Origin: Robertkochia aurantiaca
GTDB taxonomy: Bacteria; Bacteroidota; Bacteroidia; Flavobacteriales; Flavobacteriaceae
Length of the DNA stretch: 64,000 bases
Reading direction: 5' to 3'
NCBI RefSeq assembly: GCF_020166495.1
Contig: NZ_JAINZS010000004.1
Coordinates: forward strand, 62,001-126,000
A model generated the notes under the pieces. The model saw only the letters and a list, made by a program, of their open reading frames with translations, was not told the origin of the DNA and did not search any database. Each line of letters opens with the position of its first letter. Position 1 is the stretch's first letter. This document shows positions 46,536 through 49,743 of this stretch, piece after piece. A program made the translations under genes and the position numbers.

Positions 46536-47690
46536 TCAGAGGTTATTATACTCACCTCCCAAATTAAAGGTAAGGGAAAAACGAAGTGTATTTTCAAGTG
46601 GGTTTCTCACCCTGGAAGTGGAAAAAAGATAGGAAAGGTCTATGGTCGTCGATTTGAAACCAAAACCTGCGCCCAGGGTAAAAAACTGCCGGGCCCCCTT
46701 CTCTTCATTTTCGTGAAAATAACCCGTTCTTACGGCAAAGGCTTCTCTGAACATATATTCAGCTCCCAGCGCATAGGTGATTTCCTTCAATTCTTCACTA
46801 AAGCCATCTGGGGCATCGCTGAAAGAAGAAAACATCCCGCTGAAAAACGATTCGTTGTAATAGTCATCTTGCGAGTCTATACGTCCATCACCATTCGAAT
46901 CGCTAGGTGTGGGTACCAGCAATTTATTGAATTCAAGATTAACACCCAACCTATTATCCTGGTCAAAAATAAAATCAAACCCTCCTCCCAGCTTCAGATT
47001 GGTCGGCAAAAATGTCTCCCGACCTTCTTCATCGTATTTTATTTTTGGCCCCACGTTGGAGATATTAAAACCGCCTTTCCATCTTCCGTTAAAGCTACTG
47101 TATGCAATTTCAGCAGATTGAAAATAACCTGCTACGTCTACAGCAAAAGAGCTTGCAGCACTGGCATCGATACCCTCTTCAGGAATCTTAAGGTTCGAAC
47201 GAAGGTATCTCCCGGCTACAGCCATTGAGAAAGTCTCACTAAGCTTCAACGAATAGGAAGCATCGACAGCCAACTCGTTAGGGCGCTGAATAATGGGAGT
47301 AAGACCTTGCAAAGCCTCGTCTTCAGTAATAAACTCAATATCTCCCAAACTGAAATATTTAAAACTGGCCGCCCATGCACTTCGCTCATTAATACGATTA
47401 TACACGGTACCATTGAGCAAGGCTATATCATTGACCAATTGACTCAGGTAAGGCGTATAACTGATCCCGATGCCGATCTGCCTGGATGCAAAAGCATATT
47501 TAGCCGGATTCCACTGCTGAGAATAGGCATCGGGGGTCGTACTGGCCCCTAACTCACCCATTCCGCCGGCCCTTGCATCTGCGGTTATCAAAAGAAACGG
47601 AACTCCCGTTGTAATCACCCTGGACTCTTCCTGAGCCCTGAGTCCACACCCCAAAAAAAGTATGATCAGAAATACGTAATAGTTCTTCAT
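46536..47690 (-). CDS. porV: Type IX secretion outer-membrane protein PorV (LptO)
   Basis: The 384-residue protein starts at ATG 47690 with a signal peptide (FLGCGLRAQ), followed by the PorV opening VITTGVPFLLITADARAGGMGELGAST. FadL-like beta strands continue to the C-terminus. PorV shuttles type IX secretion substrates from the translocon to the attachment complex with PorU. An in-frame TTG at 47738 lies in the promoter and is not used. porU normally lies directly upstream of porV, but here the upstream gene is gldJ and no porU is present. Confidence 0.92.
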   Translation of the reverse strand: MKNYYVFLIILFLGCGLRAQEESRVITTGVPFLLITADARAGGMGELGASTTPDAYSQQWNPAKYAFASRQIGIGISYTPYLSQLVNDIALLNGTVYNRINERSAWAASFKYFSLGDIEFITEDEALQGLTPIIQRPNELAVDASYSLKLSETFSMAVAGRYLRSNLKIPEEGIDASAASSFAVDVAGYFQSAEIAYSSFNGRWKGGFNISNVGPKIKYDEEGRETFLPTNLKLGGGFDFIFDQDNRLGVNLEFNKLLVPTPSDSNGDGRIDSQDDYYNESFFSGMFSSFSDAPDGFSEELKEITYALGAEYMFREAFAVRTGYFHENEEKGARQFFTLGAGFGFKSTTIDLSYLFSTSRVRNPLENTLRFSLTFNLGGEYNNL

Positions 47691-47708
47691 GTCAGGGATT
47701 ATTTTCAA

Positions 47709-47738
47709 CAAATATAAAGTATTATGTACGTGCGGCAA
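47709..47738 (-). promoter_or_regulatory. porV: Canonical Bacteroidota promoter of porV
   Basis: On the minus strand TTG (47738-47736), a 19-base spacer and TATATTTG (47716-47709) match the TTG-N17-23-TAnnTTTG consensus exactly. The start codon at 47690 is 18 bases after the -7 box. This is the best promoter match in the window. Confidence 0.72.
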
Positions 47739-47959
47739 GCTTTACCGATTTACAGCACGTTCATAGGATTAACGAATATAGAACTCATTTCATATGTAGT
47801 ACCTCATATTTTTAAGGGATATACCCCCCTATTCGATAAAACCAAAACTATCTTCGCTCAAGCACAGGCCCTCTGATTAAAGCTGCCTCAATTCAGAGCC
47901 TTCCAAGGGCTGAAAACTTCATTTTCAGCAGGGAAAAAAGAATCAGGCACATAATAAAA

Positions 47960-48005
47960 AAACGTTTTTTTCGTTTTGACAACAACATGGAAACGTTTGA
48001 CAACA
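47960..48005 (+). repeat. Paired AAACGTTT and CGTTTTGACAACA repeats upstream of gldJ
   Basis: The palindrome AAACGTTT occurs at 47960-47967 and 47991-47998. A near-identical direct repeat, CGTTTTGACAACA at 47972-47984 and CGTTTGACAACA at 47994-48005, is offset by 22 bases, about two helical turns. The arrangement suggests a regulator-binding site upstream of the gldJ promoter. Confidence 0.6.
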
Positions 48006-48032
48006 TTAACGGCCTTATTTCAATGAAAAAAA

Positions 48033-48061
48033 TTGAATTGAAACACTTAATTGCTATATTG
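48033..48061 (+). promoter_or_regulatory. gldJ: Likely promoter of gldJ
   Basis: TTG (48033-48035), a 19-base spacer and TATATTG (48055-48061) resemble the TTG-N17-23-TAnnTTTG consensus with one missing T. The predicted leader is about 25 bases. Confidence 0.45.
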
Positions 48062-48093
48062 CAAGCCTATTTAAGACAACTCAAATCTTAATT

Positions 48094-49743
48094 ATGAGAA
48101 AGTATCTATTTAACGCATGCCTACTGTGCGCAGTGGCCTTGACGGGTTTTACCAGCTGTAAGAACAGCGGGTCTAAAAACGTCTCCAGAGCTACCGGGTG
48201 GCAGATCAATTCCAAAGAAGGAGGCTTTCAGTACAATACAAGCTTTAAGGAGCAGGAAACAGCACCAGGGCTCGTATTTCTCGAAGGTGGGACCTTCACC
48301 CGCGGAAGGGTGCAAGATGACATCATGCACGACTGGAACAACAGCCCAAGCCAACAACACGTTCAGTCATTCTATATGGATGAAACCGAGGTAACCAACA
48401 AAATGTACATGGAATACCTCGATTACCTGAAAAGTGTATATCCACCTGACAATCCTGCATATGCCGATATCTATAAAGGCGCCCTGCCAGATACCCTGGT
48501 ATGGAGAAACAGGTTGGGATACAACGAGGTGATGACCAATAATTACCTCAGACACCCGGCTTATGCCGAGTATCCTGTAGTCGGTGTTAACTGGGTACAG
48601 GCGGTACAGTTTTCTGAATGGAGAACAGACCGTGTAAACGAACACATACTAGAAAGAGAAGGGTACCTTGCCCGAAACACAAAATATGCCGTTACCCAGG
48701 GAGATGTAAACGGGACCTTCAGCACTGAAACCTACCTGAACAGTCCTTCAAACATCTATGGTGGTGAGATCGACTCACTGCAGGGAAAGGCACAAAGAGA
48801 TTCTACAAACGTATTTGCCAAGCGTTCAAGCGGAGTAATCATGCCCGCTTACAGACTGCCTACAGAGACAGAATGGGAGTATGCCGCTCAGGCTATCGTA
48901 AGTACCCGGGAGTATAACAACTACCGCGGACGTAAAAAATATCCTTGGGAAGGTCAGTACACCCGATCTGGAAAAAGAAGAACCCGTGGTGATCAATTGG
49001 CCAACTTCAAACAAGGAAAAGGGGATTACGGTGGAATCGCCGGATGGTCTGATGACAGTGCTGATATCACGGCCCAGGTAAAATCATATCCTCCAAACGA
49101 CTGGGGACTTTATGACATGGCCGGAAACGTGGCCGAGTGGGTAGCTGATGTATACCGCCCTATTGTAGACGATGAAGCGAACGACTTCAATTATTATCGT
49201 GGAAACGTCTACATGAAAACAGCCATCGATAATCAGGGGAAAGTTGAGATCGTTACACAGGAGAACATGCGCTATGATACGCTTCCGAATGGAAAGGTCG
49301 TGGCAAGAGATCTCCCCGGAGAAATCGCCATGGTTCCTGTGGATGAAAACGACACTTATCTCAGAACCAATTTCGACAAGAGTGACAATCGTGATTACCG
49401 CGATGGTGACCCGGGCTCTACCCGTTACTTTGATATGTTTAACGGTGAGGAAGACGAAAATGATCCCAAAAAGAGAATGTACAATGCACCTACGCATACC
49501 ATTAAAAGAGACTCTGCCGGAAACATTATTAAACAATACGACACCTCCAACAGCCGTACTACCCTGATCAACGACGAAGTAAGGGTGTACAAAGGAGGTT
49601 CATGGAGAGATCGCGCCTACTGGCTCGACCCGGCCCAAAGAAGGTACCTGCCTCAGTATATGGCAACCGACTATATCGGCTTCCGTTGCGCCATGTCAAG
49701 AGTAGGTTCAAAAGCCAAAGAGAAAAAGACTCCAAGACATTAA
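48094..49743 (+). CDS. gldJ: Gliding motility lipoprotein GldJ
   Basis: The 549-residue lipoprotein has signal ALTGFTSC (Cys22) and the GldJ opening SRATGWQINSKEGGFQYN. A formylglycine-generating-enzyme-like fold follows (GLVFLEGGTFTRGRVQDD, DETEVTNKMYMEY, RLPTETEWEYAAQ, YDMAGNVAEWVADVY, VYKGGSWRDRAYW). GldJ is a structural component of the gliding and type IX secretion machinery at the outer membrane, not an enzyme in the known cases. It differs from the similar GldK by its N-terminus. murF follows after a terminator, as in other flavobacteria. Confidence 0.94.
   Translation: MRKYLFNACLLCAVALTGFTSCKNSGSKNVSRATGWQINSKEGGFQYNTSFKEQETAPGLVFLEGGTFTRGRVQDDIMHDWNNSPSQQHVQSFYMDETEVTNKMYMEYLDYLKSVYPPDNPAYADIYKGALPDTLVWRNRLGYNEVMTNNYLRHPAYAEYPVVGVNWVQAVQFSEWRTDRVNEHILEREGYLARNTKYAVTQGDVNGTFSTETYLNSPSNIYGGEIDSLQGKAQRDSTNVFAKRSSGVIMPAYRLPTETEWEYAAQAIVSTREYNNYRGRKKYPWEGQYTRSGKRRTRGDQLANFKQGKGDYGGIAGWSDDSADITAQVKSYPPNDWGLYDMAGNVAEWVADVYRPIVDDEANDFNYYRGNVYMKTAIDNQGKVEIVTQENMRYDTLPNGKVVARDLPGEIAMVPVDENDTYLRTNFDKSDNRDYRDGDPGSTRYFDMFNGEEDENDPKKRMYNAPTHTIKRDSAGNIIKQYDTSNSRTTLINDEVRVYKGGSWRDRAYWLDPAQRRYLPQYMATDYIGFRCAMSRVGSKAKEKKTPRH

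Follow-up and report, generated by a model that had tools for sequence, protein, structure and literature searches.

What becomes of a type IX secretion system (T9SS) when the gene for its sortase, PorU, is not where relatives keep it? The question is raised by the porV-gldJ locus of Robertkochia aurantiaca (Flavobacteriaceae), which lies in a 64,000-nucleotide stretch of its genome, here called the window (NCBI RefSeq assembly GCF_020166495.1, contig NZ_JAINZS010000004.1, positions 62,001 to 126,000 of the forward strand). In Flavobacterium johnsoniae the order is gldJ (Fjoh_1557), porU (Fjoh_1556), porV (Fjoh_1555) (PMC7440613; this and the other papers are cited from excerpts), in agreement with a first, sequence-only reading of the window, which had proposed that porU is missing here between gldJ and porV, leaving about 400 bases without coding sequence. 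Our analysis bears out both the gap and the missing gene, and we are close to certain that what was lost is not PorU alone, but PorU, PorQ and PorZ together.

porU is absent from the porV-gldJ locus

The features of the locus, in window coordinates, are as follows.

46536..47690, minus strand: porV (384 aa), which encodes the outer-membrane shuttle for type A cargo (NF033710, 541.7 bits; cut-off 250)
47691..48093, no strand: porV-gldJ intergenic gap, the position of porU in PorU-bearing relatives; no PorU remnant
47972..48063, plus strand: conserved block 5' of gldJ, from an alignment with genomes G002 and G034 and partly G025
48094..49743, plus strand: gldJ, gliding lipoprotein, 549 aa (TIGR03524, 913.2 bits; cut-off 458.2)

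The two genes are divergent, and their start codons (ATG at 47690 and ATG at 48094, from the sequence and a listing of its open reading frames, ORFs) are separated by 403 bases, within which the listing places no complete ORF of at least 80 aa; a TTG-started form of porV extends 48 bases into the gap. A tblastn comparison of 45 PorU proteins with 28 porV-gldJ gaps, that of the window and those of 27 named loci, found no relic of PorU (best E value 0.21). Apart from the absent porU, gene order in the window matches that of F. johnsoniae. The conserved block comprises two near-identical motifs, CGTTTTGACAACA (47972-47984) and CGTTTGACAACA (47994-48005), and a third segment, TTAATTGCTATATTGCA (48047-48063), all three conserved in G002 and G034, and it is probably a control region of gldJ, a candidate put forward on sequence conservation.

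PorU is not found elsewhere in the genome or the genus

The sequence-only reading left three fates for porU (elsewhere, replaced or lost) and proposed a search of the complete genome and a comparison of the neighbourhood across relatives. A search of the whole R. aurantiaca genome (G000; 3.43 Mb in 11 contigs, completeness rated 100%) with the PorU model NF033707 gave nothing over the cut-off, its only match being to the C-terminal sorting domain part in another protein (19.7 bits). The search itself works, because the same model recovers PorU over the cut-off in 34 genomes of a first set of 60 Flavobacteriales, G000 included, plus two contig-end pieces in G019, which brings the genomes counted as PorU-bearing to 35. 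A PF01364 search of G000 was also empty and carries little weight, because its controls gave no match either. PorU was likewise found in none of four congeners (NF033707, whole genomes), and the genus falls in a clade of 15 PorU-less genomes, so that the absence is not a feature of this strain, as had been supposed.

We also compared a second set of 80 named loci, from genome contigs collected by GldJ alignment. The whole-genome search covered 50 of them: from the loci whose sequence extends over the upstream side of gldJ it took all 29 without PorU, and from the 48 with PorU it took 21; in L166, L182 and L187 the spot upstream of gldJ is not covered. PorU was found in 22 of the 50 genomes and not in 28, and among the 29 loci without porU at the spot, 28 are in genomes without PorU anywhere and one is in a genome with PorU elsewhere (G100). 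G100, a metagenome-assembled genome (MAG) of the Ichthyobacteriaceae, has three tandem PorU genes (G100:C45:21531-32657, 1048.7 to 1127.4 bits). Three genomes are common to both sets, with the same coordinates (G077 = G016, G078 = G031, G086 = G035), so that 107 are distinct; PorU is present in 55 and was not found in 52, a split that does not estimate prevalence since the second set, for which completeness is not stated, was chosen partly for lacking porU at the locus. Among the named PorU-less genomes are members of Pelagihabitans, Pareuzebyella, Maribacter, Flagellimonas/Muricauda, Arenibacter, Croceivirga, Salegentibacter, Gillisia and Arcticimaribacter, as well as Flavobacterium granuli, the Flavobacterium MAG UBA6721, Tenacibaculum aiptasiae and an uncultured Aquimarina. 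Capnocytophaga gingivalis is another, and its genome is without any PorQ/PorV-family match at E 0.001.

An assembly gap, or relocation of porU in this strain, could also explain the empty locus, and some sequence may be missing from an assembly of 11 contigs. However, completeness is rated at its maximum, porV and gldJ are contiguous, and PorU is absent also from the four congeners and from 28 of the 29 named genomes without porU at the spot, which leaves this explanation with next to no credibility. Relocation is thus not supported, and loss is the favoured fate.

PorQ and PorZ are missing together with PorU

PorZ (PF21544) scored 74 to 144 bits in exactly the 35 PorU-bearing genomes of the first set and 74.7 to 117.5 bits in exactly the 22 PorU-bearing genomes of the second, and its presence agrees with that of PorU in 107 of 107 genomes at a line of 70 bits, set post hoc (true matches at least 74, all others at most 36), and in 105 of 107 at Pfam's own cut-off. 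Weak matches in PorU-less genomes, taken for other propellers, were seen in G002 (24.7 and 26.1 bits, 32.4 with neighbours) and G038 (23.4) of the first set and in G063 (26.8, or 29.9 with neighbours), G069 (21.8) and G104 (20.7) of the second; G000 has no PF21544 match at E 0.001. PorQ (NF033711) follows the same pattern, being over the cut-off in 33 of 35 PorU-bearing and none of 25 PorU-less genomes of the first set, and in all 22 PorU-bearing and none of 28 PorU-less genomes of the second. PorQ and PorU therefore agree in 105 of 107 genomes, the exceptions being G041 and G046, which have PorU and PorZ but PorQ below the cut-off. In G000 the model NF033711 picks up nothing but PorV, which scores 47.1 bits where the cut-off is 220.

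PorV2 (NF052325, named by NCBI a putative type IX sorting system protein) seems from these matches to follow the loss of PorU. All 18 PorU-bearing genomes of the family carry it, G016 as a cropped piece of 209 aa (296 bits against a cut-off of 325), and it was not seen in the 19 PorU-less family genomes, as judged only by cross-matches of the PorQ model, of which one in G030 (23 bits) is unclassified. The sequence-only reading had placed PorU with PorV in one attachment complex and had noted the absence of PorU from it. That absence stands, but because it extends to PorQ and PorZ, and apparently to PorV2, the complex appears to be missing as a whole rather than in one part.

PorU was very probably lost several times

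On a tree of SprA from 56 genomes (four of the 60, G007, G039, G045 and G051, have no SprA match and were left out) the PorU label changes at least six times, all six changes being forced by starred branches. On the PorV tree there are ten changes, seven of them forced; paralogue rows L240-L242 are labelled PorU-less there and may account for up to two of the ten. F. granuli and UBA6721 are nested on that tree within PorU-bearing Flavobacterium, and T. aiptasiae stands beside PorU-bearing Polaribacter. The porV-gldJ gap of UBA6721 measures 1309 bases (L190:6692-8000) and has a 219-aa ORF that by eye resembles a transposase.

Parsimony counts changes without direction, and the lineage might instead never have had PorU, its PorU-bearing relatives having gained it. 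Loss is nevertheless the natural direction, because porU adjoins gldJ in 48 named loci ranging from Flavobacterium to Owenweeksia (porV is next in 42, and the other six end before porV). Ancestral absence also fits poorly with PorU-less F. granuli and T. aiptasiae being nested among PorU bearers and with porU and porV being neighbours in Porphyromonas gingivalis too, and we regard it as very improbable. Since all four congeners and the clade of 15 genomes lack PorU, the loss here looks older than the genus. The best reading of these trees and loci is one of nested losses, in which an ancestor older than the genus would have lost porU, porQ, porZ and apparently porV2.

Translocon, motor and some cargo are retained

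The rest of the secretion system is in place. SprA of G000 matches TIGR04189 with 2856.8 bits over positions 2-2319 of 2319, and GldK, GldL, GldM and GldN (612.2, 235.5, 458.3 and 269.2 bits, all over their cut-offs) are consecutive in L275. SprA is matched in 22 of the 25 PorU-less genomes of the first set, and every one of these also has PorV, adjoining gldJ in 17 and elsewhere in five. PorV itself is largely unchanged: of 119 columns conserved in 50 PorVs from PorU-bearing genomes, 15 are altered in at least three of ten loss groups and 104 are not, with 11 divergent rows left out of the comparison. A PorV loop, shorter in most PorU-less PorVs, was considered as a mark of PorU docking and rejected because it is short also in PorU-bearing Altibacter, Aequorivita aquimaris and Marinirhabdus and longer in PorU-less F. 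granuli.

Cargo is retained as well. G000 has 10 type A tails, that is, TIGR04183 matches to the C-terminal domain (CTD) at E of at most 0.001, and nine type B tails. Of 12 type A matches at E 0.05, nine were scanned with Pfam (L133, L135 and L136 were left out), and seven of the nine pass the cut-off of PF18962. L136 reads by eye as a type B protein. The seven that pass are the following.

L276:7804-8223: 140-aa protein with little beyond a signal peptide and the tail; best TIGR04183 match of the genome; passes PF18962
Reprolysin-like protease, 1259 aa; passes PF18962
Alpha-amylase, 1123 aa, in the region L278:1292-16354; passes PF18962
Two giant proteins, 3412 and 3744 aa, whose domains are of the malectin, PKD and kelch types; pass PF18962
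Immunoglobulin-domain protein, 947 aa; passes PF18962
SprB-repeat protein, 1623 aa; passes PF18962

Frames as short as that of the 140-aa protein (115 to 157 aa) are among the matches listed for G005, G011, G015, G017 and G025. By eye, the alpha-amylase gene sits between SusC/SusD-like genes, and because of this position the sortase-less T9SS seems to serve a starch locus. The congener G002 has a second GldJ over the cut-off (843.2 bits, G002:C2:35527-37119).

Within the family, PorU-less genomes (n = 19, five from one genus) have a median of 12 type A tails and PorU-bearing genomes (n = 18) a median of 47 (p 1e-6, kinship ignored), in counts that take at most the best 80 matches per genome, include weak tails and, in PorU-bearing genomes, may be raised by the tails that PorU and PorZ carry. 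The medians for type B are 9 and 10.5 (p 0.90). An expansion of type B as compensation was not seen in the tail counts of the 60 genomes.

The persistence of type A cargo with ordinary CTDs, including the alpha-amylase in its Sus-like locus, would suit a replacement of PorU, with an unrelated protease or sortase cutting and perhaps attaching type A cargo, an alternative that has been named for Sphingobacteriia (PMC7323717). Yet no gene of sortase size occupies the porU spot. The window gap is too short for one, 26 of the 27 named gaps measure 186 to 683 bases, and the longer gap of UBA6721 holds the transposase-like ORF (the ORF listing covered four of the gaps). An attachment step would still have a use for PorQ and PorZ, yet both are absent too. 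Judged from these gaps and absences, we consider replacement rather unlikely.

Proposed fate of type A cargo

We consider it fairly probable that this is a T9SS whose cargo attachment module was lost as a unit, with the cargo then left uncut. After the loss of porU from between gldJ and porV, and of porQ, porZ and apparently porV2 from elsewhere in an ancestral genome, the SprA translocon, the GldK/L/M/N ring and motor and the type A shuttle PorV would have been retained. Type A cargo would still pass through SprA onto PorV and would be neither cut by a C25 sortase nor linked to anionic lipopolysaccharide (A-LPS). It would stay held at the surface by PorV through its uncleaved CTD, or leave slowly, or leave by other proteolysis. 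Without cleavage to release it, PorV would be exhausted by its cargo, which fits the smaller number of type A proteins. Type B cargo travels on PorP/SprF shuttles and would be untouched, which fits the counts within the family but not those outside it.

The proposal draws on what is described for P. gingivalis and F. johnsoniae. PorQUZ is a processing and attachment station that cargo reaches on PorV (PMC10202324), and when porU is mutated in P. gingivalis, cargo is still exported but retains its CTD and builds up on PorV, which is a temporary anchor (PMC5562754). Because cargo stays uncut on PorV in that mutant, a lineage without PorU, PorQ and PorZ would be permanently in the porU-mutant state. 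By this analogy type A cargo may stay bound to PorV, a step for which we find the balance even. Deletions of porU and porZ in F. johnsoniae cause the same loss of colonization (PMC10936215), and this shared phenotype fits one module; gliding is given as unaffected in PMC7440613, which cites earlier work.

Alternatively, cargo could be shed with its CTD still on, PorV acting as an exit helper without anchoring. The lower number of type A tails in PorU-less family genomes, with type B about equal, would suit shedding, since type B tails rely on different shuttles and probably escape cleavage (PMC10202324). However, uncut cargo in P. gingivalis remains on PorV (PMC5562754), and type B tails are reduced too outside the family; we think shedding unlikely.

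Several points weigh against the loss of an attachment module with cargo left uncut on PorV. At its own cut-off Pfam calls PorZ in PorU-less G002 and G063, at the combined scores given above, and a sortase unlike PorU would be missed by these searches. Uncleavable cargo in P. gingivalis ties up PorV while others wait in the periplasm (PMC5562754), so a natural PorU-less system might need a release step. Loss of porU costs F. johnsoniae surface colonization (PMC10936215), and PorU loss is thus not plainly harmless. Outside the family the six PorU-less genomes have a type B median of 1 against 15 (p 0.001) and few type A tails also, and across all 60 genomes the type B medians are 8 in PorU-less and 12 in PorU-bearing genomes (p 0.047); because type B is also lower outside the family, part of the type A drop may be a general reduction. 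In kinship-independent pairs type A goes in the same direction in 3.8 of 6 and in the opposite direction in 0 (p 0.125), whereas type B shows no consistent direction. Taking the type A reduction as proof of a consequence was rejected, its direction being consistent but the difference not significant on these pairs. Some PorU-less genomes still carry some 30 type A matches (33 in G005, 33 in G030, 30 in G038).

A second PorV beside giant genes

In three PorU-less genomes, G001, G002 and G035, a second PorV gene (porV') lies directly beside a giant gene. In the congeners G001 and G002, porV' (380 and 377 bits to PorV) adjoins a gene for an S8 subtilase of 2527 or 2529 aa with a type A tail, in a row that runs, by eye for the regulator, TPR/LuxR-like regulator, porV', S8 subtilase (L255:6931-17440 and L254:820-11235). 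In G035 (Salegentibacter sediminis) a gene for a 2732-aa DUF285/SUEL-lectin protein, whose tail fits no T9SS model, is followed by porV' (344 bits; L256:17-9411), so that gene order differs between the genomes. The porV' of G001/G002 and that of G035 do not group on the PorV tree, where the branch of the latter is long and its placement unsure. G000 has one PorV-family match in the whole genome and none flanking seven cargo genes, and hence no dedicated PorV of this kind. Second PorVs were identified only as cross-matches of the PorQ model, and the pairing with giant genes cannot be claimed as specific to PorU-less genomes, because extra PorV-family matches in PorU-bearing genomes outside the family (e.g. 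G039, G042, G049, G055) are unclassified. By analogy with SprF/PorP for type B, PorV might have become a terminal anchor that holds uncleaved type A cargo in PorU-less flavobacteria, no longer a recycled shuttle, with a second, dedicated PorV beside one giant surface protein in some lineages, an idea that we offer tentatively and hold more doubtful than not.

Comparison with known systems

The system shares SprA/Sov, GldKLMN/PorKLMN, PorV and both type A and type B CTD cargo with the T9SS of F. johnsoniae and P. gingivalis, and the gldJ-porV neighbourhood with F. johnsoniae; it differs in missing PorU, PorQ and PorZ, and PorV2 was not seen (by PorQ-model cross-matches only). Sphingobacteriia are alike in lacking PorQ, PorU and PorZ while keeping Sov/SprA and PorV, and uncleaved cargo bound to PorV has already been proposed for them; they are another class, and the excerpt surveys at the level of classes, neither comparing loci nor counting cargo (PeerJ 2020, PMC7323717). 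The marine Flavobacteriaceae strains Aa_F7 (closest match Flagellimonas) and DN50, both of which spread on agar, likewise lack PorQ and have a gldJ locus without PorU, but in those two strains hypothetical genes directly adjoin gldJ, where here porV is the neighbour, and the excerpt makes no statement on PorZ (BMC Genomics 2020, PMC7440613). SprF, encoded beside SprB, is a shuttle paired with type B cargo that may hold its cargo, a shuttle-as-anchor model that the porV'-giant pairing in G001, G002 and G035 resembles (PMC9143113, PMC12618676); porV' differs in encoding a PorV-family shuttle, with a type A tail on its neighbour in G001 and G002, and all type A tails are described as using the one PorV (PMC12618676).

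In the open-licence literature we found no report of all-or-none coupling of PorU, PorQ and PorZ, of nested losses in Flavobacteriaceae, of PorV2 as a part of the module, or of an additional PorV gene adjoining that of a giant protein, as in the three PorU-less genomes; earlier notice of these findings is possible. We class the system as a further example of a T9SS that lacks the attachment module, ordinary for its clade and partly known.

Implications

Cleavage by PorU is described as the step that processes type A cargo and frees it from PorV. Because PorU, PorQ and PorZ disappeared jointly on several occasions, whereas the translocon, PorV and some type A cargo were kept, the attachment module appears to be separable from the rest of the T9SS and close to all-or-none, and both the PorU-Q-Z coupling and the porV'-giant pairs are worth following. 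Species without PorU are natural test beds for the role of PorV in the absence of a sortase. Maribacter, Arenibacter and Flagellimonas, which belong to this clade, are degraders of algal polysaccharides, and for such flavobacteria it matters how surface enzymes are held.

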